Source: Bursaphelenchus xylophilus (Eukaryota; Nematoda; Chromadorea; Rhabditida; Aphelenchoididae). From it: 64,000 nt of DNA. Shown here piece by piece: positions 44,426 through 60,925 of this stretch; the stretch's first letter is position 1, and every line of letters begins with the position of its first letter. A program made the translations under genes and the position numbers. Location: positions 310,001 to 374,000 of the forward strand of contig CAJFCV020000001.1 of NCBI GenBank assembly GCA_904066235.2, in the 5' to 3' direction. The notes beneath the pieces were generated by a model. The model worked only from the letters and a program-made list of their open reading frames with translations, was not told the DNA's origin and searched no databases.

Positions 44426-44915
44426 CTGTGCACTGTGCGGCGGAAAGTGTATTTTTTCGCACTGTGCAAAAAAATAAAAAAGTTTTTAATTCAAATTTTT
44501 GCACGGTGCAAATTTTTATGATTTTTTTTGTGCACTGTGCAGTCAAAATTTTGCTATTTTTTGCACTGTGCAGTCAAAATTTTGCTATTTTTTGCACTGT
44601 GCAGTCAAAAATTTGAGATTTTTTGCACTGGGCAGCCAAAATTTTGCTATTTTTTGCACAGTGCAGTTTCACAAAGTCTCAAGTTTCGCCGCACAGTGCA
44701 AAACTTCGGAAATCTCTGCACAGTGCAAGAAAAATTTTCAAGATTTTCTGCACTGTGCAATCAAAAAAAAGTTCCCAATTTTGCACATTGCACTCATAAA
44801 AGGCTAAAAAATATTTGGCATGGTGCAAATTTTTTCCCACAAACTATACTGTTCCAAAATTTCGATTATTCAAAATCCGCACAGTGCGGTCAAAAATCAA
44901 TTTCACTGCACGGTG
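44426..44915. repeat. GCACTGTGC/GCACAGTGC array with a polarity switch
   Basis: Motifs with central T dominate to about 44640, then central A appears (44655-44725, 44880) before T returns. One block, CAGTCAAAATTTTGCTATTTT, is tandemly repeated. Confidence 0.85.
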
Positions 44916-45429: not shown

Positions 45430-47740
45430 TCCGAACGCTCAAAAATACATTTTGAAACGCCGCGCTAAAAGTACTGAGGTTTTACCGAAACTTGAGGAAA
45501 ATTTTGAATGTTTTTTAATTGATATTCGAGACTCTTGGCTCGAGGATTTGCTGAAAAATCCGGGATTTTTGAGTCGCAAATTGATGAAAATTTGGAATTT
45601 TTTTTTTGCAAATTTTGGCAAGAAAAGTTTCATATTTATTTCTGCCGTAGAGGGTAATGTTTCTACAAAAAATAAATTTTTTCCACGCAAAATTGACAGA
45701 GATATGGCCAAAAAGTTTTTTCCCTTCGCTCTCCGCATCTCGCCTACCCTCTCGGCAGCAAAGATCGCTCAATATCTAGGCGGCCCCTGGAAAGCTCGAG
45801 CTAAAACTTTCTGGAATTGATATGCGGCCTATGCCCCAGTGTGTGACCAGTTGAACCCGAGATTTTTTGGCGAAAACTCGGCATTTTTTAAGGCGAATTT
45901 TTTGCGAACTTTTGCAAATTTTGGTATGAAAAGTTTCATATCTATTTCTACTGTAGAGGGTAATGTTTCTACAAAAAATCAATTTTCTCCACGCAAAATT
46001 GACAGAGATATGGCCGAAAAGTGCTTTTCTCTATGGCCGCTCCCCCCATTGCACACACTCTCTCACATATCGTTGAAAATCCCGGCTGTGCCTGAAAAAC
46101 ATGAACTAAAATTTTTGGATATTGTTGTTTTCCATGTACCTATCATATGGCCACTGTGTAAGCCGAGATATTCGATGAGACGAGAGAGTGTATGCAATGC
46201 GGAGAGCAGTCGATGAGAAAAAGCTTTTAAGCCCAGCAAAGCAAGAGCTATCATCTTTGGAGTTACTATATGTATATACACACATATAGATGTATATATA
46301 CATACACATATATTCTGTATATGTATATGTGCACATATACATATCTTATATATATACATAAATAGAATATACATACACTTTCAAGATACGTAAGAAAAAT
46401 CAGTCAAAACTTTGATTTTCATGTATATTTATACCCCATTTACAGTACTCCCACTTCCTAGAAACATTCAAAAATTCGAGAAACAATTTCCGGCTCATTC
46501 TCCGAACTGACAAACTCATCGCGTCATGTCGGGCAATATCGGAAGATTTGACATTCCCAATTTGCTAAACTCCCCATTTTTCTTCATCGGCGATGACACG
46601 AAATTCAATAAATCATCTTCCATATGCGGAGTCAACGCTTCCTTTCATGGCTCAAAAACAATTTCGGACCGTTTTTTTCCTTGATGATGACGCACATCAT
46701 TAAAAAAACTTTAATTTAAAATTTTTCTCGCCCACATTTTTTAACATTTGGCCCACACATTGATTGGCCATATAACAATTTGCGAAAATTTTGAATTTTA
46801 ACGATATACGAGAGAGTGTGTGCAATGGGGAGAGCGGTTAGAGAGAAAAACGCTTTTTGGCCATATCTCGGCCAATTTCGCGAGGAAAAAATTGATTTTT
46901 TGTGGAAACATTACTCTCTACGGTAGAAATAAATATGAAACTTTTCATGCCAAAATTCGCAAAAGTTCGCAAAAAAAATGGCCAAATTTTTGTTAACTTG
47001 CGACTCAAAAATCTCGGGTTTTACTTGTCACACACTCGGGCATAGGCCGCATATCAATTCCAACAATCTCCAAAAATTTTAGTTCATGTTTCGCAGGCAC
47101 AGCCGGGATTTTCAACGATATGTGAGAGAGTGTGTGCAATGGGGGGAGCGGCCATAGAGAAAAGCACTTTTCGGCCATATCTCTGTCAATTTTGCGTGGA
47201 GAAAATTGATTTTTTGTAGAAACATTACCCTCTACAGTAGAAATAGATATGAAACTTTTCATACCAAAATTTGCAAAAGTTCGCAAAAAATTCGCCTTAA
47301 AAAATGCCAAGTTTTCGCCAAAAAATCTCGGGTTCAACTGGTCACACACTCGGGCATGGGGCGCATATAAATTCCGGAAAGTTTTAGCTCGCGCTTTGCA
47401 TCGGCCACATAGACATTGAACGATCTTTGCTACCGAGAGAATAGGCGAGATGCGGAGAGTGGTCAGAGAAACACTTTTTAGCGCTATCTCGGCCAATTTT
47501 GCAAGGAAAAAATTGATTTTTTGTAGAAACATTACCCTCTACGGTAGAAATAAATATCAAACTTTTCATACCAAAAACTCGCAAAAAAAATTCCAAATTT
47601 TCGCCAACTTGCGACTCAAAAATCTCATTGGTAACGCATGAGAAATCTCGAATATACCCTAAAGAAGCATAATAAAAATTTTCGCCAAGCTTCTCCAAAA
47701 TCTGAACGTCGCACGTCCAGAAATTTCTCGCAATTTTCTC
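45430..47740. repeat. Composite of decayed repeats related to MITE family 4
   Basis: Units containing GTAGAGGGTAATGTTTCTAC and AATTGACAGAGATATGGCC occur forward near 45640-45715 and 45945-46015, and in reverse near 46860-46930, 47165-47235 and 47475-47550. Inverted arms of several hundred bases therefore face each other across 46400-46800. A microsatellite interrupts the left arm. No gene seen. Confidence 0.75.
46258..46378. repeat. TATACA/TATGTA-type microsatellite
   Basis: Low-complexity alternation of TATA, CATA and ACATAT for about 120 bp. Confidence 0.9.
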
Positions 47741-48490: not shown

Positions 48491-49648
48491 AAAATCTCGC
48501 ATCTGTCGCGGAAAACATTACTCTAAATTTGCGCCAAATTTCATCAAAATCTAACCGTTGCACTTGAAGCACTTTACATTGTAAACATTGACGTTCAAAG
48601 TGCAAAATTTAAAGAAATTTTGATCGTTGCACTCTGAAACTCTTCCCTAAAAAGGAAATAAGAATCGTAATAAAACACCCGTTCAAAAAAATCGCCCGGA
48701 ATTTACAAAAATTGAAAGAGATCTCCCATAAAATTGCGTGAAAAGAAATTCCCCAGCCAATGTTTGTCTACGCCCTCAGGGTACAAAGGAAACGTCAGGG
48801 GGTGGAAAAAGCGGGCTGGCCATAAGATGACCGGTCCGTGGAGAGGGGGGAAAGAATGAAAAAAAGAACCGTAGCTATGAAAAATAAGATTTGGAGCTAC
48901 GACTTTTCGAATCGGCGATAGTTAAAAATTGAAGATATCATGATGTCTTCAATTTTTTATAATTTTTTTTATCTTTCATCTTATCATCTCAGAACCGTCG
49001 TATTTCACGCCGAAATGGACTACTTCCCATTAACCGAGTGGAATCTGAACTTGAAATTGTAAAAATTGGGCCGAAAGGTCTTACATTTCACATGCAGTTT
49101 GTTACGAGTTACTTTTTTTTTGCCTTTTGCCGAGTTTTATCGAAATTTTTTTGAATTTTTAGATAAATTTGGTATATGGAAATCCAAGTGGATTACTGTG
49201 ATTTTAGAATGAAATATATAAAAGCACGGCTTTTTAGTGTCAAAAAAATTAAAGAAGTCGTCAATTTCACTAATTGCCCTCAGGGGGTTTTGGTCAAAAA
49301 TTATCAAAAATTCCCCAAAAACCTAGTCTTCAATTAAAAAAATATGGTGAGGCTAGCTTACTTTAGTGTCAAAAAAAATTTTTTCTAATTTTTGAAAAAA
49401 TAGAAGTCAATTTTTTATGACGTCATCTGATCAAAAGTGCTCTCTAAAGATTATTCAAACCCCCGGATCACTCCAAAATATATCACAAACTAAAAAGAAT
49501 TTAGTTTCTCTCCAAAATACGGAACGGATTTGCATTTTTTTTATATTGTACAAGGTGAATTTCAAAAAAAAATTTTTTTAATTAAATTAAATTTTTTTAA
49601 AATTTCAAAAAATATTTTTTGAATCACAGTGCAAAAAAAAATATTTTG
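48491..49648. other. Left flank of the LTR element
   Basis: No gene. It includes the inverted partner (48940-49420) of the repeat at 37860-38330, and ends in a GCACAGTGC-like motif (CACAGTGCAAAA, 49625-49636) next to the insertion site. Confidence 0.6.
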
Positions 49649-49851
49649 TGTCGCGACACCCTCGCGATACTAAAAATAGCAAAAAGGAATTCTCTCAATA
49701 GGCCGATTGGATGATTAATTTGGGCCGAGAAGATTCTTGATTGCCATAACATTCATTTCCCCTGCCTCTTAATCACCGCTTTCCGTGCAAACGCCTGAGT
49801 AAGCACGGATCATTCACTCCGTATCTCCTGCTTTATGATTCCACTTATGAG

Positions 49852-49897
49852 GTGTCCTAGGGCCGGACCCAACCCCCTTGGCCCAGCCCTAGGACAC
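49852..49897. promoter_or_regulatory. Perfect 12-bp inverted repeat in the LTR, upstream of the TATA box
   Basis: GTGTCCTAGGGC at 49852-49863 pairs with GCCCTAGGACAC at 49886-49897 across a 22-base loop. It lies about 30 bp upstream of the TATA box and recurs in the 3' LTR at 60662-60707. It may be an operator-like protein site or a structure in the 3' LTR transcript. Confidence 0.7.
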
Positions 49898-49923
49898 TCC
49901 AGCTAATCCCGCCCTTTTGATGA

Positions 49924-49955
49924 TAATATATAAGCCTGAAAATTCCCACAATAAA
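49924..49955 (+). promoter_or_regulatory. LTR TATA box and AATAAA polyadenylation signal
   Basis: ATAATATATAAG (about 49923-49934) is a good TATA element for transcription towards the coding region. AATAAA follows at 49950-49955. Their closeness implies a transcript start just downstream of about 49960 and a short R region. Confidence 0.65.
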
Positions 49956-50115
49956 TATATCGCAAAATCAACTGTTGTTGTTGTCAGTCAGCGTCGCCAT
50001 CCCCAGCACCCCCGCGAAAAGGTAGGAGAATTGTAAGATTCTCAAAAGGAGTCGGCAAACCCAGCCGGCCGACTCCCAAATTGTCACCGAGCCTATTCCC
50101 GGCCGTGACAATTTT

Positions 50116-50133
50116 TGGTGACCCCGACGTGAT
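50116..50133 (+). other. Primer-binding site for tRNA-Trp
   Basis: TGGTGACCCCGACGTGAT begins 5 bases after the LTR. It is complementary to the 3' end (including CCA) of the conserved eukaryotic tRNA-Trp as I recall it, over 18 bases. Confidence 0.8.
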
Positions 50134-50390
50134 CTAGGTCCGCCAAAGGTAGACCTAGATCGCGCCTCTGAAACCAACGGCAGCTCCCAAAAAAGGGTAG
50201 CTAAGAAGTCAGCTCCCTAAAGGGAAGCTCAACTACCGCGGAGACCACGCGCAAGTCCCCAACGCAGGATCCCTGCTTCGAAGATTGATCCCAACCTCTA
50301 CCTGTATCCTTTTACTTGCTGAATCTTCTACCTGTGCTTATCTGATTTGTGCTAAAAGGCGATATCAACCCAACAAAGTCCCCCCGAACT

Positions 50391-53300
50391 ATGGACTCCC
50401 CTTCCGGCAAAATCCGCCAAGCAATCGGCTTGGCAAAACGCCGCCTACAAGATGCCCTCCGATCCTACCTACAAATCCAAAAGGAAATAGACCTAAATCC
50501 CGCTGAAATCAATGACGAGCAACTCTATAACACCTTCGAAACTGCCCATGATGTTTTCCGAAGACTATCCCGAAATGTTCAACGATTAGACGAGCTCCAT
50601 AACCAATGGCAACGCATCATTGAAACCAACCCATCCGAACAGACCACCTTCGACAACTACATTACCGCTCATGGAGACTTCCGCTCCCTCGTCGAGGAAG
50701 GTCGCGCCGCCGTCGACCACCTCCGACTCCGCATCGGACTTCTGCGCGAAGCCGCATCAAACCGACTCGAACTGACCGACCCTAATGACCTGTACGACAA
50801 TGGCGAGGGAACACTGGACATCGTCCCCTCTAATGATGCCGTGTTCTCCACCCCAACCACGCCGACCCGTCCCAGCACGCCGGCTACCCCTGCGACTCAG
50901 GTAAACCCTCCCGCCGAACTAAGTCAGCCCTCTCCCGGCTGGATGGACCTCCTGTTCCTTCCAAACGTCTCAATCCCCCAATTCAACGGCAATCCCAGCC
51001 GATGGAATGAATTCTGGGATTTGTTCAACGCCATGGTAAACAACCGAAAGTTGGAGCCGTGCCTGAAGCTCTTCCAACTCCGATCATGCCTCGAAGGTGA
51101 GGCAAAAGCAGCACTTTCCCACCTTGGAAATTCTAACGCCGACTACAACATTGCCGTCCAAACCCTCAAGGACCTCTACGGTGACCCCCTCAGAGTCACC
51201 CACAGACTCCGCGCAGAAATCCTTCAATTCCGTATCCTTGACAAGGGATCCATCAACCTCTACCGAGGATGGTCCCGTCTACACCAATTGTACTCCCAAC
51301 TCCTGTCCATGGGTGACCCAGCCGACACCACCCTTCTAGCCCAAGTCATCGAAAGCAAGTTCCCGCGCTACGTACTCCAAAAAGTATACAAGGATGCCAC
51401 CATCATCCCTAAAGGAAAACAAATGTTAGATGCCGTAGGAGATGTCCTCCGCAAAGAGGCAAATATCGATCGAATGATTTCCGACAACCATGGAGACCAG
51501 AAACGCCTCCCAAATCGGCCAAATACACCCCGACGGCCCGATCAAGTGCTCTCTCATTATAACGCCGACCAAGACGAGAAAAATCCCAATGGGCCCTCCT
51601 GCCACCTGTGCGAAGGCCGACATCTCACCTACAAGTGTTCCAAATATGGCGAACCCCAAGAACGACAACGACAAGCAAGTTTGAAGAAATTGTGCCGCAA
51701 TTGTCTTCTACCTGGACATTTCGTCCCCGAATGCCCCTCCAAACATTCCTGTCGCCATTGCAACCAACGGCACCACTCCTCAATGTGCTTCCGTAACAAC
51801 CCGGCCGGGCCAAGCAGACCAGCTCAAAAAAGCAAACCAGCGCAGAAAGTAACCTTTGCTCCGAAACCCGCCAAAACCACCCCTTCGGCTAAAACTAGGC
51901 CGCCTTCCAATCCACGAAAGGAAAAGACTCATGTCGTTATTAACGAAGATGAATTGGACGACAATGAACAGTCAGAACAAGCCTTCCTGACAAATACCAA
52001 GCCAAAGCCCAAACTATCAACAACTCTACTCATGACCACCGAAGTGGAAGCAATCAACCCCGACGTCTCGAAGGTAAGCAGACCTGCTGTTCTTTTCAGT
52101 GACTCCGGAAGCACTCGCAGCTTCATCACCGAAGAACTCGCGTCCAACTTAAAACTGAGACCCCTCTCCGACGAGATAACCACAGTCAACGTCAACACAT
52201 TTGGAGATCACAGCGAGACCTTCAACACCAAAACGTACAACTTAGTCATCCGCGATCCAGCGCACCCAAAGAAGACAACCAAAATCTCCGTCCTCTCCAT
52301 TCCCAATATGACCAGTTCGATGCTGGCTGCCCTCCCTACCGATTTCCATGAAACGCCACTGACCGTGAAGAAAGTCCGGCCCTCCATCCTTCTCGGAATG
52401 GACAATCTCGACATCTGTCGGAGCACCGGAGAGCCAGTCGACCTCCCCTCGGGCTTCAAGCTCTCACACTCCAAGATAGGGCGATTCATCTATGGAGAAG
52501 GAAAGGCAAGTCCAGTGCCTCAAACCAATGCCCATACCCACCATTCTTACATGATGGAAATGGCGATCCCTCTGCCTACAACAGAAGGATCTATCACCGC
52601 CATTGCTGGACCTATGTGGTCAGGAAAAACAACTCTCCTCTTGGAAAAATTGAATGAGTTTCCCGAGCAATCCCGCATCCTGAGAATACGGCACGTGGCG
52701 GACATCAGATACACTGAAGGTAACCAAATTGTGACTCATGACGGCCAGACCCACGCCTGCATGAGAATCGCCGACCTCAACAGTACGATTGCCTTACTGA
52801 ATGTCTACGACGTGTTGGCCATCGACGATGCCCATTTTTTCCCCGAATTGGCTGTAGTCTGCCAGAAGATTCGCGACCTCGGTAAGACTATCATCGTCAC
52901 CGGACTCCTAAACGGGACTTATCTCGACAATCCTACGCCGAAGACAAACTACAACTTCGCTCCATTATGGGCCATTGCAGACCTCCGCCATACTCTGCTC
53001 GGAAATTGTGATATCTGTGGTGAACCGGCCTCTTACAGTAAAAGGATTGTCCCGAATCCCACCGATCCCACCGATATTTCTCAGTGGGTCGGCGGTAAGG
53101 ACAAGTATGCTACTCTTTGCCCAACTTGTGATACAGCATACACCACCAAGCATTCCCCACAAGTATTCCACATATCCATTCCTACAGAGGAGACCCCCAA
53201 CGATTCTTCAACCGAGCCCGTGTCGATTTGCGTGAAACATACGGAACAAAAGCAGCTCAGTTCCTTACTCACAAAATTCTGGACCCTCGAACACTTGGGA

Positions 53301-56300
53301 ATCCACGACGACCCCAGTCGTAACGACGACGACCTCGCAATGGAAGCCTTCCTTAAAACCGTCACTCGTGATGAAGAAGGTCGATACGTTTGTCGATGGC
53401 CGTGGAAAGGCACTCCTACCACTCTTCAAAGTAATTTCGGCCGTTGCCTCGGGCGACTTCGTTCTACTCTCCGCCGCCTCAGCGCTAATCCAACCCTCCT
53501 CCAACAATATAGTGAGATCTTTTCCGATCAACTCACCAAGGGCATTATCGAGGAAGTCCCTCTCAATCAACCGAGTCAGGGACCTCTCCATTACATCCCC
53601 CACCAACCTGTCATCACCCCCGACAAAACCACGACCAAATTACGCGTGGTTTATGACGCTAGCTGTAAAACTCCCAACGGGAAGAGCCTGAATGACCACA
53701 TGTTCCGCGGACCAGTGCTCCTCCCCGAACTGGTTGGCATGCTTCTTCGATTTCGTGTTACCAAGATCCCATTGCTTTCCGATGTTGAGAAAGCTTTCCT
53801 CCAATTATCACTGGACGAACGTGACCGCGACTGTACCCGCTTCCTCTGGGTCCGTGACGTCACCCAACCCGCGGAAGGTGCCAACCTGATGGTCTTCCGC
53901 TTCAATCGGGTTTGTTTTGGAGTAGTTTCATCACCCTTCCTCCTCGCCGCCTGCGTGGATTACCACCTCCAACACTACCCACATCCCTTGGCCAAAGCAA
54001 TGCGAAAAAATTCGTACGTCGATAACGTACTTATCGAATGTTCCGACGTCCAAGAGGCTACCGACGCTTATCACCTCTCACGACAAATCTTCAGCGAAGC
54101 AAAAATGAACCTCCGAGAGTTTCAATCCAGCCATCCAACAGTCAAGGCCTTTTTGGAACAACAAGGAGAAAAGATCCCGGAAATTGTCAAATTTCTTGGC
54201 CTACAGTGGAATACAAACACCGATATTCTCACTCTCGTGCCCTGGAAAACCCCAAACTCCGAACAGCTTGCCACAAAGAGAACCATCCTCAAAAGGATCG
54301 CTAGCCTGTTCGACCCCCTAGGTTTTCATGCACCTTTGATCCTCCAAGCTAAACTCCTCCTCCAAAAGTTGTGGCAACAAGGTAAAGACTGGGACATCCC
54401 ACTACAGGAAGATCTTCTTTTTGAATGGAATCAAATTCAATCATTACTCGAGACATCCACAATGCCCACACTACAACGCCACGTATGCCCATTTTCTTCT
54501 GACTCTGCTGAACTTCACGTGTTCTGTGACGCTTCTGACCGAGCTTATGCAGCAGTCGCTTATCTTCGCACTCAGTCAGGCGACCTCATCGATGTGTCAT
54601 TCCTAATCGGTAAAAGCCGTCTGGGACCCATAAAAGGCATGACCGTGCCCCGCCTGGAACTCCTCGGACTTCTCATTGGATCTAACCTTGCTCGCACAAT
54701 TGCCACTGAGCTACCGTCAATTCGGCTCACCAACATCTTCCTCTGGACAGACTCACGGATCGTCCACACATGGCTTCTTTCTCGTCGAACACTTCCAATC
54801 TTCGTCAAGAATCGAGTCAACTCCATCTGGCAAAATGTCCCCAACGCCTCGATCCGATACGTTCCCACGGCAGAAAACCCAGCTGACTCGGCTACCAAAC
54901 GTTGTCCACCATCACAACTTTGGCTCGAAGGTCCCGCTTGGCTCCGGCAGTCACCAAGCCAATGGCCAAATCAACCGGAACTCTACGAAGCTCCGGAGGA
55001 TATCACTGCTGTCGCCGAAGTAACAACGGCACCCATACCCCTCATCGATGCTACTCGGTTCAGCCGCTGGACCATCCTCATCCACACCCTTGTGTGTGTA
55101 CTGCAGTACCTGGCGACCGTACTCTCGACCAGTAATACCGCTCAACGGAAATATCCCTGGCTTTCCGTGTACACCACGCCGTCCACCCCACACACAACCC
55201 AATTTCATACTGCAGAGAAATTGTTCTTTCGGTTAATGCAACAAGAACGACCCCCAACAAAAGCTCAACAGCACGAGCTCAACCTGTATCAAGATTCTGA
55301 ACAAGTTTTTCGCTGTCGTACTCGGCTCGCCCATGCTTCTCTCCCTACGACAGCACAAAACCCCATCTTCCTACCATCTCCCCATTACGGGACCGCACTC
55401 TACATCCATCATATCCACCAACTATTGGGACATGCGTCCACTTCAACTACGCTATGTCACCTTCGTTACCGCGTATGGATTCCAAAAGCCAGACGCCTTG
55501 TCCAATCCAGCATTCGCCAATGTTCTTGCCGAACGTTGAAGCCGTTCGCGCTTCCACCCTTTCCCAATTACCCACACATGCGTGTACAACCAAACCCTCC
55601 ATTCCACTACACAGGCCTGGATTACGGTGGTCCCATCTCCGTCAGCATCACCACTACCGACACCATAAAAACATACATCTGTTTGTTCACTTGTCTCACC
55701 TCACGGGCCGTACACCTCGAGCTCGTATTGGACCTTTCCACCCTCGCCTTCCTCCAGGCCCTTCGAAAATTCATCTCTCGACGGGGCACCCCAGCCGAAG
55801 TCTGGAGCGACAATGCCCCTCAATTCCGCCTCGCAACTCAAGCAATCACCCTTGCATGGGCTGAATCCGAAGACGTACAATCGTATTTGGCAACGCGCGG
55901 AATTAAATGGAGCTTCATCACCGAATCTGCCCCTTGGCAGGGCGGATCGTGGGAAAGATTGATGGGAGTAACGAAGACGGCACTCAAGAGAGCCATCGGC
56001 AAGAAAAAGATCTCGCTGCCTGAAATGATGACGGTATTAACCGAGGTAGAAGCTATCGTCAATTCCCGTCCACTGACATTTGTACCCTCAAAAATCGATG
56101 ATCAATCATTTCACCCGATCCGACCCATCGATTGCATCCAACCAGGAGCCTTCATCGGAGTCCCTCTCCTCGACCCTTGGGATCCCGAGGATGGCACCTT
56201 CGAGCCTAAGCCGTCATCGGTCACTAAGTTAATGGATCTTTGGAGAAAGCAACAAAGAATCATTAACCAATTCTGGAAAATTTGGAGCTCGGAATACCTC

Positions 56301-58406
56301 CTCACTCTGGCCGAGCGACATCAAACAACCCACAAACAGGACAGATCTGCGATCGATCGACTCCCAATGAAAGGAGAAGTCGTGCTTGTCCATGAGGAAG
56401 GACTCGGAAGAGGAAAGTGGCAAATGGCGAAGATCTTGGAGATCGTCACTCCAAACAAAATCCAAATTCAACTCGCTACACCGCCCCATTTGGTCCTCCA
56501 CCGATCCCCGAAACACCTCTATCCACTCGAACTTCAACCCGAGATCCCAAACGCAACTGAAGGAATCCCAAGAACGTCCAACCAGCACGATAGCCCACCG
56601 CCACCCAGACGGAGTCCGAGAAAGAATTCTTCTTCCACCACACTAGTCGCCTATTTTCTGGGCATAGTTCTTATTAACACCGTTTCGGCTACGGAATCCC
56701 TACCCAACCCTTGTACAGCAGAGGACTGTGCCCCTTGGAGATGGGATTGCTGTACAGCTATCCAAAAAACAGGAATCTTCATCTGGATGGGAGTATTACT
56801 CGCTCTAATACCTTTCATTTGCATCCTACTAGCTATACACACTTGGATTTGGCGAACAGTCAGATGGATCTGGACTCGATGCCGTCCACAAAACCCTCGG
56901 CAACCACGATACCAGGCTCCACACCGAATTCGACGTCTTCTTCGGACGACAGGCACCATTTACCTCCTCTTCGGACTCTTTCCGTGGGTTAATGGTTGCT
57001 CAGAGGTAACCGCCTTAACCGCGAGCACTCACAACTGCCGTTTTGATGAAGATTCCAACGTCGAGACCTGTTCCCTCTCCCAATCCATCCAACTCAGTTT
57101 GCGGCCCATCAACGAGACAAGCTGTCTTCGAATCACCACCCCACTCAACGGATCATATATGCTCCGCTTGACTACCCTCCAGCTAAAGTTTAAATGTAAC
57201 TTTAAATACGGCTACCATACACGAGACTTTGCCACCACAGTTGAATCCGTCCATCGATGTGACATGGCATCGAATTCGTACTGTCAAGGATATCAATGTG
57301 AAAAGGTCTCCACGTCCGACGACCTCCCCGAATTTTCACTCCTAGCTCGTCGGGCCCCCGGCTACTCCCACTGTACCCGGGCCTGTGGGTGCGCCACTTG
57401 TGGCTGCTTCCTCTGCAGTCCGGGATGTAACTTCTGGCGCCTCTATGCCTTACCAAAAACCAACAACATTTACCTAATAGGACGTTGCCCCACGTGGACT
57501 ATAACCGCGTCAGTAATCCTAGAAGTGAGCGGCAAAACGTCCCTCATACAACTGGTGGCTGCCAAGCCCGTCCACGTCGGAAACGAGATCTTCACTCTAC
57601 AGGCCATATCCACTCCGCAGGTACCGATTCTGTATCAACCTATGGTTATAAAAGTGGGAACCAACGAGGCCATCACCACCGCAGCCTCTGACCCCCAACA
57701 ACCTGCTCCGGGCAGCCTAGGGGTCTTCCAATGCCGCTCAGAAGACGATGCCAGAAGATTCCAGTGTACATTCCCCCATGAAACTTGTTCATGCAGCCCC
57801 AGCGATTTCCACACCAAATGCACATGCAACTACCGCAACCCTATGGACCTATGGCACAGCCCGGAGGTAAAACTCCCGTTCACTTCTGGTCCAATAAAGA
57901 TCGCCTACCAAAACCACACCATCACGGCAGAAATCGCTCAACAAACCGCCATTCTGGTTCACATCGCCTTCCAAAACGCAACGATATCTACGTTTCATTA
58001 TCGTGCAAAGTGTGCACCTTCCGTGATACAACAATTGACCGGATGCAAGTCTTGTCATTCGGGCGCGCAAGCTATCATTTTCTGCCAATCCAAATTCCCA
58101 ACGACTATCAATGTCGAGTGTGATGGAACAAATGTCCAATCATCTCCCTGCAACAACATTACGTTCCAACTCAACATCCACACCGATGAAGCTGAATTTA
58201 ACAAAAACTGTTCCTACTCCTGCTCCGATAAATCTGACGGAACTCTACACCTTTTCGGAAAACTTCACACCATGACGATTCCTCCTCCCCGTCCAAGGAA
58301 CTTGGACAGTGGTGGGCAAGAGCCGCCGATGAAGTTCCGATCGGAAACATTCTACGCGATATTACACAATTTCTGGAAAAAGTCGCTTGGTTTTTCCCTT
58401 CTTTAA
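50391..58406 (+). CDS. Gag-protease-thymidine kinase-RT-RNase H-integrase-glycoprotein polyprotein
   Basis: One 2671-residue frame from the ATG at 50391; a GTG 14 codons earlier is in frame but not a normal nuclear start. In order: helical Gag and DUF1759-like segment (about 190-330, with QFNGNPSRWNEFW); zinc knuckles C404-C416, C435-C448 and C454-C466; aspartic protease with DSGS at 571; TK1-type thymidine kinase (734-931); RT (about 1050-1290) with D1131 and YVDN 1209-1212; RNase H (about 1370-1505); integrase with an HHCC finger, D1744, D1807 and E1855; a DUF5641-like tail; then a glycoprotein from about 2084. Two membrane spans and a second signal-like span precede a Cys-rich ectodomain with potential N-glycosylation sites. 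No stop separates pol from the glycoprotein, so processing by proteases is expected. The frame ends without a membrane anchor, which lies in the -1 frame. Confidence 0.95.
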   Translation: MDSPSGKIRQAIGLAKRRLQDALRSYLQIQKEIDLNPAEINDEQLYNTFETAHDVFRRLSRNVQRLDELHNQWQRIIETNPSEQTTFDNYITAHGDFRSLVEEGRAAVDHLRLRIGLLREAASNRLELTDPNDLYDNGEGTLDIVPSNDAVFSTPTTPTRPSTPATPATQVNPPAELSQPSPGWMDLLFLPNVSIPQFNGNPSRWNEFWDLFNAMVNNRKLEPCLKLFQLRSCLEGEAKAALSHLGNSNADYNIAVQTLKDLYGDPLRVTHRLRAEILQFRILDKGSINLYRGWSRLHQLYSQLLSMGDPADTTLLAQVIESKFPRYVLQKVYKDATIIPKGKQMLDAVGDVLRKEANIDRMISDNHGDQKRLPNRPNTPRRPDQVLSHYNADQDEKNPNGPSCHLCEGRHLTYKCSKYGEPQERQRQASLKKLCRNCLLPGHFVPECPSKHSCRHCNQRHHSSMCFRNNPAGPSRPAQKSKPAQKVTFAPKPAKTTPSAKTRPPSNPRKEKTHVVINEDELDDNEQSEQAFLTNTKPKPKLSTTLLMTTEVEAINPDVSKVSRPAVLFSDSGSTRSFITEELASNLKLRPLSDEITTVNVNTFGDHSETFNTKTYNLVIRDPAHPKKTTKISVLSIPNMTSSMLAALPTDFHETPLTVKKVRPSILLGMDNLDICRSTGEPVDLPSGFKLSHSKIGRFIYGEGKASPVPQTNAHTHHSYMMEMAIPLPTTEGSITAIAGPMWSGKTTLLLEKLNEFPEQSRILRIRHVADIRYTEGNQIVTHDGQTHACMRIADLNSTIALLNVYDVLAIDDAHFFPELAVVCQKIRDLGKTIIVTGLLNGTYLDNPTPKTNYNFAPLWAIADLRHTLLGNCDICGEPASYSKRIVPNPTDPTDISQWVGGKDKYATLCPTCDTAYTTKHSPQVFHISIPTEETPNDSSTEPVSICVKHTEQKQLSSLLTKFWTLEHLGIHDDPSRNDDDLAMEAFLKTVTRDEEGRYVCRWPWKGTPTTLQSNFGRCLGRLRSTLRRLSANPTLLQQYSEIFSDQLTKGIIEEVPLNQPSQGPLHYIPHQPVITPDKTTTKLRVVYDASCKTPNGKSLNDHMFRGPVLLPELVGMLLRFRVTKIPLLSDVEKAFLQLSLDERDRDCTRFLWVRDVTQPAEGANLMVFRFNRVCFGVVSSPFLLAACVDYHLQHYPHPLAKAMRKNSYVDNVLIECSDVQEATDAYHLSRQIFSEAKMNLREFQSSHPTVKAFLEQQGEKIPEIVKFLGLQWNTNTDILTLVPWKTPNSEQLATKRTILKRIASLFDPLGFHAPLILQAKLLLQKLWQQGKDWDIPLQEDLLFEWNQIQSLLETSTMPTLQRHVCPFSSDSAELHVFCDASDRAYAAVAYLRTQSGDLIDVSFLIGKSRLGPIKGMTVPRLELLGLLIGSNLARTIATELPSIRLTNIFLWTDSRIVHTWLLSRRTLPIFVKNRVNSIWQNVPNASIRYVPTAENPADSATKRCPPSQLWLEGPAWLRQSPSQWPNQPELYEAPEDITAVAEVTTAPIPLIDATRFSRWTILIHTLVCVLQYLATVLSTSNTAQRKYPWLSVYTTPSTPHTTQFHTAEKLFFRLMQQERPPTKAQQHELNLYQDSEQVFRCRTRLAHASLPTTAQNPIFLPSPHYGTALYIHHIHQLLGHASTSTTLCHLRYRVWIPKARRLVQSSIRQCSCRTLKPFALPPFPNYPHMRVQPNPPFHYTGLDYGGPISVSITTTDTIKTYICLFTCLTSRAVHLELVLDLSTLAFLQALRKFISRRGTPAEVWSDNAPQFRLATQAITLAWAESEDVQSYLATRGIKWSFITESAPWQGGSWERLMGVTKTALKRAIGKKKISLPEMMTVLTEVEAIVNSRPLTFVPSKIDDQSFHPIRPIDCIQPGAFIGVPLLDPWDPEDGTFEPKPSSVTKLMDLWRKQQRIINQFWKIWSSEYLLTLAERHQTTHKQDRSAIDRLPMKGEVVLVHEEGLGRGKWQMAKILEIVTPNKIQIQLATPPHLVLHRSPKHLYPLELQPEIPNATEGIPRTSNQHDSPPPPRRSPRKNSSSTTLVAYFLGIVLINTVSATESLPNPCTAEDCAPWRWDCCTAIQKTGIFIWMGVLLALIPFICILLAIHTWIWRTVRWIWTRCRPQNPRQPRYQAPHRIRRLLRTTGTIYLLFGLFPWVNGCSEVTALTASTHNCRFDEDSNVETCSLSQSIQLSLRPINETSCLRITTPLNGSYMLRLTTLQLKFKCNFKYGYHTRDFATTVESVHRCDMASNSYCQGYQCEKVSTSDDLPEFSLLARRAPGYSHCTRACGCATCGCFLCSPGCNFWRLYALPKTNNIYLIGRCPTWTITASVILEVSGKTSLIQLVAAKPVHVGNEIFTLQAISTPQVPILYQPMVIKVGTNEAITTAASDPQQPAPGSLGVFQCRSEDDARRFQCTFPHETCSCSPSDFHTKCTCNYRNPMDLWHSPEVKLPFTSGPIKIAYQNHTITAEIAQQTAILVHIAFQNATISTFHYRAKCAPSVIQQLTGCKSCHSGAQAIIFCQSKFPTTINVECDGTNVQSSPCNNITFQLNIHTDEAEFNKNCSYSCSDKSDGTLHLFGKLHTMTIPPPRPRNLDSGGQEPPMKFRSETFYAILHNFWKKSLGFSLL
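52590..53183 (+). other. TK1-like thymidine kinase domain embedded between protease and RT
   Basis: Residues 734-931 follow the type II thymidine kinase plan. The P-loop is AGPMWSGKTT with K746. The next conserved patch is DIRY...THDGQTHA. The Walker B/catalytic segment is LAIDDAHFFPE (D812, D813), where the family normally has IDE, so the catalytic base position holds Asp. A zinc site is formed by C873/C876 and C910/C913. The lasso motif GGKDKY that closes over thymidine is intact. Length (about 198) matches cellular TK1 cores. The enzyme would phosphorylate thymidine to dTMP. A lentivirus-like parallel is pol-encoded dUTPase, also a nucleotide-pool enzyme. I cannot tell whether the donor was animal, bacterial or viral. 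Confidence 0.93.
56640..58406 (+). other. Envelope-like glycoprotein region, phlebovirus Gc type
   Basis: It starts with a signal-like span (residues about 2095-2110), then a hydrophobic span near 2130-2150, then a second signal-like span ending near residue 2203, after which a Cys-rich ectodomain begins. Around residues 2324-2354 a Cys/Gly-rich loop with a following aromatic-Arg pair resembles the fusion-loop region of bunyavirus class II glycoproteins. Nematode retroelements with such envelopes are known (Cer7/Cer13 type). N-x-S/T sites are frequent. The frame runs out before the anchor. Confidence 0.75.
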
Positions 58407-58588
58407 TCTTCCAATATCCCCTCCTTATGTTAATTGTTATGGCAACTGTCGTTATCATGCTTTATTTTCTTTTCCGCTACAATTTCCCTTCCACCCCACC
58501 TGCGATCTTTCTCGGACCTCGCCCGCACCAACAACTCCCCGAAAGCCGTGGTCTCCTGCCCAAACGGGCTAAGCCCCACCACCATTAA
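58238..58588 (+). other. Glycoprotein stem and membrane anchor in the -1 frame
   Basis: The -1 frame is open from 58238 to the TAA at 58586-58588. It encodes an amphipathic stem, a hydrophobic span around 58415-58475, a basic aromatic cytoplasmic start and a short tail. This is what a class II fusion protein needs after its ectodomain. The main frame instead ends at 58406 with a poor hydrophilic tail. I see no canonical slippery heptamer in the overlap, so a one-base indel is more likely than programmed shifting. Confidence 0.7.
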
Positions 58589-58859
58589 CCAACCACTGGT
58601 CCCTTACCCTTCTTCCGATCCCTTTCGTCCTTAGCAAAAACCACAACTCATATTTTTCGACACAAAAAAAAAAAAAAAAACATGGATCGGGAGAAGTTTT
58701 TTTCCACGCAACCCACATCTTTTGCCAAAATTTTACCACTGCTTTATCCTAACCATTGTCGTCAAAATTCGTATCCTAAACCCCACATCCCCTCCGGTTC
58801 CTCAACACTTCCCTCCGCGGGAGCGTCACCACTAGCAGTTCAATTACAAATGAACTGTA
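58589..58859. other. Spacer between the two element genes with an A17 run
   Basis: A run of 17 A at 58664-58680 precedes an ATG (58682) that opens a frame overlapping the accessory gene out of phase; I do not treat that frame as a gene. The A run could be a slippage product or a relic of a captured polyadenylated transcript. Confidence 0.6.
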
Positions 58860-60308
58860 ATGCTGAAAAACAACACCCTCCCCCGAAAAAATCCGGAATC
58901 TATGGCCGGTCGTCTCATACCAATCTTTCCAGACATGAGTGGAAAAAGAAACCAACAGAAGGAGCAAAACGACGAATGTCGCCATCTTTTCGACCCCTCC
59001 GAAGAAGACCTGCTTACCATATATTCAACCATCCTAGCACTAGGTCTGATAAATCTCCAAAGCCGCACACAGTCCCGATGGGCCAGCATCCGGAGGCGGG
59101 CCGCTTTCCGTCTACATCCGGATAAATCCAACAACCCAACCGTCGCGACCGAACTCTTCAAAGTCTTCCAGTACAGCTGCAGATACCTGGATGACCTCAC
59201 CCAAGCTCAATACGAAGAATTTATCGAACGCCACCGCCACTGCCGCCCAATTCCGCTGCTAGACATAATCAACTTCGCCGACATCCCCGGCCCATCTACG
59301 TCCGCACCACAAGATCCTGCCATGTCGGACGCAATCCAGGAACTTCAACGCGAGGTAGAATCTCTCCGAGCGCAGAACGAAGCGCTCACCGCGGAGGCCT
59401 CCTCCTCCACCGCCGCCCGACACCAGGCGGAGGAGGAGGCCAAGCGCCTCCTGAGACAGAACAAACAACTCCGGAAACGCAACGAGGAATTGTCTGCCGA
59501 AGCCTCTTCCTCCGCCGCCGCCCGTAACCAGGCGGAGGAGGAGGCACAGGCCCTCACCGACACCCTGAACGAAGCTCGCCGAACCCGGCGCATCTTAGCA
59601 GAAGACAACGAGAGGCACTACCGGGCAATCCAAGCACTCCGGGAGGCCTCGCGAAACCAGCAGCTAGCCGCAGCGGAGGTGGGCGCTCAGCTCACCGAGG
59701 AGATCAATCAGCTCAGCGCCTTGCTACAAAACGAGGAAGAAAGGCATCGGCGAAGTTTGACCAGACTGGATGAAGCCGAAACCCTGGCCGCCTCCCTCCG
59801 CCACAATTTGGAGCAAGAAATGAGGAGGCCGCATAAAGCACGCCGTCAGCCGTGCCCCTACTGTAACTCGGCTGACCACAACCCTCTCGACTGCACGGTC
59901 GTTGTTGACCGCTCGGTCCGCCGAAGACTTATCGGCGACCGGTGCGTCAACTGTTTGGGAAGACACGATGTCATCAGATGCCCAAGCAGAAAAACGTGTC
60001 TACACTGCAAACAATGGCATCACACCTCGCTGTGCGCCCTGGGAACCCCCCACGACGTCCCTGGGCCCAGCACCTCCAGAGCACACGAGGACCAGTGCCC
60101 CATATGCCTCACCGGGGACGACCGACCAGTGACCCGCACATACTGCGGTCATCTCTTCCACCAGATCTGCCTAGACGAGTGGATCACCAGCCAGCTCAAC
60201 CAACATCAGAACCCGACGTGCCCCAATTGCCGCGCCCCTCTACATATCGACTCCCGCCACCGCCAACCGGATACCAGCCCAGAGGAACCGGAGGAACCCA
60301 CTTTCTAA
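58860..60308 (+). CDS. Accessory protein: J-domain-like module, coiled coil, zinc knuckles and RING-H2 finger
   Basis: 482 residues from the ATG at 58860. Residues about 46-120 resemble a J domain: a helix with IYSTILALGL, a basic helix RWASIRRRAAFRL, the loop HPD at 86-88 and a following helix with LFKVF. J domains stimulate Hsp70. Residues about 155-325 form an Ala/Glu/Arg-rich coiled coil with a 35-residue internal duplication (173-198 and 208-233). Zinc knuckles follow at C332-C345, C362-C374 and C380-C392; the last two resemble the knuckles of the element's own Gag. A RING-H2 finger has all eight ligands: C413, C416, C429, H431, H434, C437, C454, C457. RING-H2 fingers usually recruit ubiquitin-conjugating enzymes. 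Other ATGs at 58902 and 58935 are possible starts. How it is expressed, by splicing or its own promoter, is not visible. Confidence 0.9.
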   Translation: MLKNNTLPRKNPESMAGRLIPIFPDMSGKRNQQKEQNDECRHLFDPSEEDLLTIYSTILALGLINLQSRTQSRWASIRRRAAFRLHPDKSNNPTVATELFKVFQYSCRYLDDLTQAQYEEFIERHRHCRPIPLLDIINFADIPGPSTSAPQDPAMSDAIQELQREVESLRAQNEALTAEASSSTAARHQAEEEAKRLLRQNKQLRKRNEELSAEASSSAAARNQAEEEAQALTDTLNEARRTRRILAEDNERHYRAIQALREASRNQQLAAAEVGAQLTEEINQLSALLQNEEERHRRSLTRLDEAETLAASLRHNLEQEMRRPHKARRQPCPYCNSADHNPLDCTVVVDRSVRRRLIGDRCVNCLGRHDVIRCPSRKTCLHCKQWHHTSLCALGTPHDVPGPSTSRAHEDQCPICLTGDDRPVTRTYCGHLFHQICLDEWITSQLNQHQNPTCPNCRAPLHIDSRHRQPDTSPEEPEEPTF

Positions 60309-60458
60309 AAAGATAAGATAACCTGTCTATAAAATTTATTGTAATTAGATAAGCTCACTATAAATTTATTGTAAAATTTTGTAATCTCTGTACTCTGTTC
60401 CAAACTTTTGTAACCCAAAAATTCCCTCCTCTTCTTCCTCCCTCTCCCTCCCCCGGAG
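60309..60458. other. 3' untranslated stretch ending in a polypyrimidine tract
   Basis: From 60421 to 60454 almost every base is C or T, then CGGAG meets the LTR. LTR elements normally carry a polypurine tract here on the coding strand as the plus-strand primer, and I do not see one. The nearest purine run is AAAAAGATAAGATAA at about 60307-60321. Confidence 0.8.
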
Positions 60459-60920
60459 TGTCGCGACACCCTCGCGATACTAAAAATAGCAAAAAGGAAT
60501 TCTCTCAATAGGCCGATTGGATGATTAATTTGGGCCGAGAAGATTCTTGATTGCCATAACATTCATTTCCCCTGCCTCTTAATCACCGCTTTCCGTGCAA
60601 ACGCCTGAGTAAGCACGGATCATTCACTCCGTATCTCCTGCTTTATGATTCCACTTATGAGGTGTCCTAGGGCCGGACCCAACCCCCTTGGCCCAGCCCT
60701 AGGACACTCCAGCTAATCCCGCCCTTTTGATGATAATATATAAGCCTGAAAATTCCCACAATAAATATATCGCAAAATCAACTGTTGTTGTTGTCAGTCA
60801 GCGTCGCCATCCCCAGCACCCCCGCGAAAAGGTAGGAGAATTGTAAGATTCTCAAAAGGAGTCGGCAAACCCAGCCGGCCGACTCCCAAATTGTCACCGA
60901 GCCTATTCCCGGCCGTGACA
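60459..60920 (+). repeat. 3' long terminal repeat
   Basis: Identical by eye to 49649-50110, with the hairpin at 60662-60707 and AATAAA at 60760-60765. Followed by the TTTTG target duplication. Confidence 0.97.
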
Positions 60921-60925
60921 TTTTG

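Follow-up and report, generated by a model that had tools for sequence, protein, structure and literature searches.

Why would a retroelement encode a thymidine kinase (TK) domain? The question is raised by a stretch of 64,000 nucleotides of the Bursaphelenchus xylophilus genome (GenBank assembly GCA_904066235.2, contig CAJFCV020000001.1, positions 310,001 to 374,000; hereafter the window, to which all plain coordinates refer), in which one complete BEL/Pao element of 11,272 bp (49649-60920) carries a TK1-family domain inside its polyprotein. An earlier note made from the sequence alone had proposed this fusion, and comparison with the family profile bears it out: PF00265 matches the domain at 52590-53183 (forward strand, as for all stranded features below) over residues 2-180 and scores 92.2 bits, where 20.6 would suffice (E 4.5e-26). 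The domain lies in frame, with the protease on one side and the reverse transcriptase (RT) on the other. The motifs named in the earlier note are all present, i.e. a P-loop GPMWSGKT (52608-52631) with the invariant lysine of the GPMxxGKT pattern, a THDG motif (from 52734), the first cysteine pair CDIC (53007-53018), the lasso motif VGGKDKY (53088-53108) and the second cysteine pair CPTC (53118-53129). All four cysteines of the putative zinc pairs as well as the two glycines and the tyrosine of the lasso pattern GGxxxY are kept in the alignment. The domain also conforms to the TK1-like fold; a single-sequence fold prediction was poor (predicted local distance difference test, pLDDT, 32.9) and was discarded. 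What the earlier note overlooked is that the position of the catalytic acid falls in the sequence DDAHFF (52824-52841), with aspartate where the TK1 family has glutamate.

Is the fusion a property of the element or of the assembly? A genome search located the TK domain at no fewer than four loci with 98-100% identity, and all four copies possess two long terminal repeats (LTRs) each and their own 5-bp target duplication (TTTTG, GAATT, GGGCT and AAGAC). With two more TK-bearing proteins on two metagenomic contigs, an artefact of assembly or annotation becomes next to impossible, and the same four duplications and two relatives rule out a chimera confined to this contig, an objection that the earlier note had itself raised. 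The copies differ in length: in the one on C5 (C5:10634367-10637960), the open frame measures 2331 aa versus 2686-2747, with the TK stretch open and both LTRs in place.

The two relatives emerged from a search with the RT region, in which 7,966 candidates were scored, 2,353 passed E 1e-10 and the best 120 were examined. PF00265 was found in three of these 120, namely the window's own protein, P0003 (2,743 aa, 59% identity) and P0004 (2,774 aa, 58%), while a TK query run at E up to 10 found no TK in the remaining 117. Both relatives are metagenomic and contain a Phlebovirus_G2 domain, and their TK pieces alone match at E 1.3e-38 and 1.4e-32, respectively. All three elements show the same succession of domains, with the TK at the same site. 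A search with the TK region as query returned the window's own protein only, a result that on its own would have been misleading. The JGI label of P0003, "thymidine kinase", is taken as automatic annotation. Within the host genome, the interval from the protease active site to the N-terminal block of the RT (motifs chosen by eye from the alignment) spans 393 aa in the window element versus 137-175 aa in eight TK-less elements, which were drawn from 29 RT matches comprising the four TK copies and, among others, pieces or near-copies.

Has the domain been retained for a purpose? Codon changes were scored against the majority codon with an assumed transition bias of 2 across three distinct copies, for which the window copy and the second C1 copy, identical over the three stretches compared, were counted once. 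The TK stretch shows 17 synonymous and five replacement changes, where 74% replacements would be expected without selection (P 6.5e-7); the corresponding counts are 33 and 3 for RT-A17, 16 and 10 for Gag-protease, and 6 and 4 for a second open reading frame (ORF) with a RING finger. Judged from these counts, the TK domain is under purifying selection, with a constraint looser than that on the RT. This speaks against the idea that the linker between protease and RT merely tolerates inserts and that the domain is a functionless passenger, as does its presence in three elements although the RT regions of the relatives are merely 58-59% identical to that of the window. Fast divergence of the TK between elements and its altered catalytic residue would suit a passenger, which nevertheless appears improbable.

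What, then, might the domain do? The reading preferred here, with a probability of roughly 55%, is that the in-frame TK domain phosphorylates thymidine and thereby provides the deoxythymidine triphosphate (dTTP) with which the element is reverse-transcribed. Several observations weigh against it. The catalytic glutamate, present in 158 of 158 other TKs in the alignment and in both P0003 and P0004, is replaced by aspartate in three copies of the element and by glycine in the C4 copy, the latter being one of the five replacement changes counted above. This substitution argues that activity in the window lineage may be reduced or lost, and because the glutamate is absent, the window domain is filed as a TK1-family domain by descent only and not as a proven thymidine kinase. 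Furthermore, the TK of the window is just 40% and 32% identical to those of P0003 and P0004, compared with 67% and 65% for the RT in the domain-wise comparison; the protease stretch (37% and 40%) and the envelope domain (39% and 46%) are about as loose as the TK. In Gag, P0004 resembles the window element more closely than P0003 does (80% versus 64%), in TK less closely, and the host possesses a TK1 gene of its own.

It is possible, though doubtful, that the domain arrived as a kinase, has been weakened or has died in the window lineage, and is kept for another role, for example to bind nucleotides, to sense dTTP or to help Pol oligomerise. In human TK1, the affected residue is Glu98, which acts as proton acceptor (PMC8757434), and the C4 copy even has glycine there; not one of 160 other TKs in the comparison, P0003 and P0004 among them, has aspartate at this position, and still selection acts against replacement changes. 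An active kinase would, on the other hand, agree with the retained P-loop lysine, cysteine pairs and lasso residues and with the glutamate in both relatives, and aspartate might in principle serve as the base. Of the interpretation put forward in the earlier note, a TK-bearing retroelement that could raise its own dTTP supply, the fusion stands, whereas the replaced glutamate counts against the proposed activity in this lineage.

The supply of deoxynucleotides (dNTPs) limits reverse transcription in resting cells. A boost of dTTP for this process is a plausible role and fits the parallel with dUTPases. Under the preferred reading of a thymidine-phosphorylating domain, the TK would have been acquired once by the ancestor of the TK-bearing elements; the kinase would then be packaged and travel with Gag-Pol, producing thymidine monophosphate (dTMP), and hence dTTP, locally, just as retroviral dUTPases produce deoxyuridine monophosphate (dUMP). 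Reverse transcription could thereby proceed in cells poor in dTTP. In the window lineage, where aspartate has taken the place of glutamate, activity may be low and in the course of being lost or altered, while P0003 and P0004 keep the glutamate. The domain is best read, by analogy, as a nucleotide-supply module that has been retained where bdelloid LTR elements have a dUTPase, with an activity perhaps weakened in the window copy. Only tentatively, at slightly less than even odds, can this be extended to a captured TK1-type kinase that rides with the RT, provides thymidylate on site and has freed an envelope-bearing belpaovirus lineage from the host cell cycle.

From where could the domain have been acquired? 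A scan of the whole genome with PF00265 gave nine matches, i.e. the four element copies and five pieces of a single host gene on C4 (one piece at E 0.04 and another at 0.59). This host TK1 contains introns and, spliced by hand to 229 aa, scores 182.6 bits and is 53% identical to human TK1, but only 31% identical to the TK domain of the element. A tree was built from 92 of the 161 TKs (rows at least 60% identical to a kept one removed; three eukaryotic rows). It unites the three retro-TKs (100/83), with host, human and trypanosome TK1 outside their group, and the same group persists without five long rows (100/84). These groupings come with long branches, an unsettled bootstrap and a program warning that the long branches of the window domain and P0003 meet. 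Recent capture of the host TK1 is unsupported in view of the introns, the 31% identity and the separate position of the retro-TKs, although the approximately unbiased test still permits a grouping of them with eukaryotic TK1 (p 0.0808). The tree that the earlier note had envisaged for finding the donor named none: the TKs closest in it, one nanoarchaeal and one from a viral contig, were not accepted as such given the long branches, the unsettled bootstrap and the few eukaryotic rows. Used alone to look for a donor, the TK domain reached E 1e-3 with none of 137 candidates, and patterns built from it or from the P0003 domain had no match among the IMG/VR contigs. Since the three elements share the site of the TK, a single acquisition in their ancestor is the simplest reading; as P0004 matches better in Gag and worse in TK, it is not certain, and the domain may have been replaced.

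The element that houses the TK was called intact in the earlier note, and rightly so. Its 462-bp LTRs (49649-50110, TG...CA, and 60459-60920) are mutually identical and flanked by the TTTTG duplication (49644-49648 and 60921-60925), and the main ORF (50349-58406, first ATG at 50391) runs without internal stops. Short target duplications are typical of BEL/Pao elements. The Gag-Pro-TK-Pol-Env polyprotein (50391-58406) begins with the Gag domain DUF1759 (PF03564, 50982-51383, E 2.1e-19), followed by a possible CCHC zinc knuckle (51690-51740, E 0.26, under the cut-off) and the aspartic protease DUF1758 (PF05585, 52056-52484, E 5.8e-5, barely over the cut-off). Downstream of the TK, the RT (PF00078, 53772-54116, E 1.5e-5, YVDN motif at 54015) scores under its Pfam cut-off, as does the integrase core PF00665, yet both are correctly placed; the integrase (55401-55922) is also matched by PF17921 over the cut-off. 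The Pao Peptidase_A17 domain (PF05380, 54273-54755, E 4.7e-49) lies between RT and integrase, and DUF5641 (PF18701, 56241-56453, E 1.3e-10) and the Phlebovirus_G2 envelope fusion domain (PF07245, 56997-57962, E 2.9e-72) complete the series. The Pfam scan of the polyprotein gave no separate RNase H match. The Pao-type domains in their expected order, the LTR length and the 5-bp duplications at four copies place the element in BEL/Pao, and the C-terminal phlebovirus-type domain together with YVDN in the RT place it among the nematode belpaoviruses.

An 18-nt primer binding site (50116-50133) pairs with the 3' end, CCA included, of a host tRNA-Trp. Its sequence occurs 14 times genome-wide, four times inside element copies; of two further occurrences scanned for tRNA, one is a tRNA-Trp gene and the other gave no tRNA. 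Directly before the 3' LTR (60430-60458), the coding strand is pyrimidine-rich without an evident polypurine tract. The second ORF (58860-60308, 482 aa), present in all four copies, encodes a C-terminal RING finger (60090-60233, PF13639, E 2.6e-9) after weak coiled-coil matches. Diverged pieces related to this ORF (48-88% identical) lie at C3:482729, C2:10787651, C4:3316625 and C1:5026488 and may be traces of older, related elements; three 9.9-kb stretches around such pieces, those outside C1, were free of TK remnants at E 0.01.

Upstream of the element lie direct repeats of 31 bp and an inverted repeat whose 418-nt arms are 93% complementary (44495-44680, 45710-47478). A scan for SL1-like RNA, with 50 of 30,139 candidates scored, yielded 48 matches, all under the Rfam cut-off (best E 2.8e-7), and not one in any of 14 control genomes, which is consistent with a nematode host. 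Of the matches listed, 45 of 48 are clustered on one contig (C3), on both strands.

How does the element compare with known systems? Nematode belpaoviruses including Atlas virus, as described in PMC9094657, share with it a single Gag-Pol-Env polyprotein, identical LTRs, a phlebovirus-type envelope and the YVDN motif of the RT; that paper's element measures 9.2 kb versus 11.3 kb here, and "thymidine" occurs 0 times in its main text. The family profile of the International Committee on Taxonomy of Viruses (PMC8742986) gives LTRs of 0.2-1.2 kb and tRNA-Arg or tRNA-Gly as primers, in contrast to the tRNA-Trp fitted by the window element. The word kinase is absent from the main text of this profile and of a BEL/Pao survey (PMC3118150). 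Searching the full text of open papers in PubMed Central revealed no retroelement with a thymidine kinase among the matches listed (titles and starts of abstracts), and no paper combining "Bel-Pao" with "thymidine kinase" or "thymidine kinase domain" with "retrotransposon". If the reading holds, a nucleoside kinase would for the first time be known from a reverse-transcribing element; the fusion itself is shared by three diverged elements.

With the type II TKs of cells and large DNA viruses, the window domain shares PF00265, the fold, the P-loop, the cysteine pairs and the lasso; it differs in its place within a retroelement polyprotein and in its replaced catalytic glutamate. Some small viruses of the bidna class of parvoviruses carry a TK-like (Tkoid) gene on their segments and others a dUTPase-like gene, according to PMC11071296; these are DNA virus segments and not reverse-transcribing elements. 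The contrast between glutamate-bearing relatives and aspartate- or glycine-bearing copies poses the question of what is selected, catalysis or the binding of nucleotides alone, and it becomes testable whether retroelements run their own nucleotide pools. A dUTPase is a different enzyme from a TK in fold and reaction, and the window domain is related to nucleoside kinases and not to dUTP hydrolases. A parallel is provided by the bdelloid elements Juno, Vesta and TelKA, which according to PMC5408684 harbor a dUTPase between protease and RT, as some retroviruses and LTR elements also carry one: here, too, an enzyme of pyrimidine nucleotides sits in the same pol slot, and direct salvage of thymidine would constitute a second answer to dNTP limits beside dUTPase.
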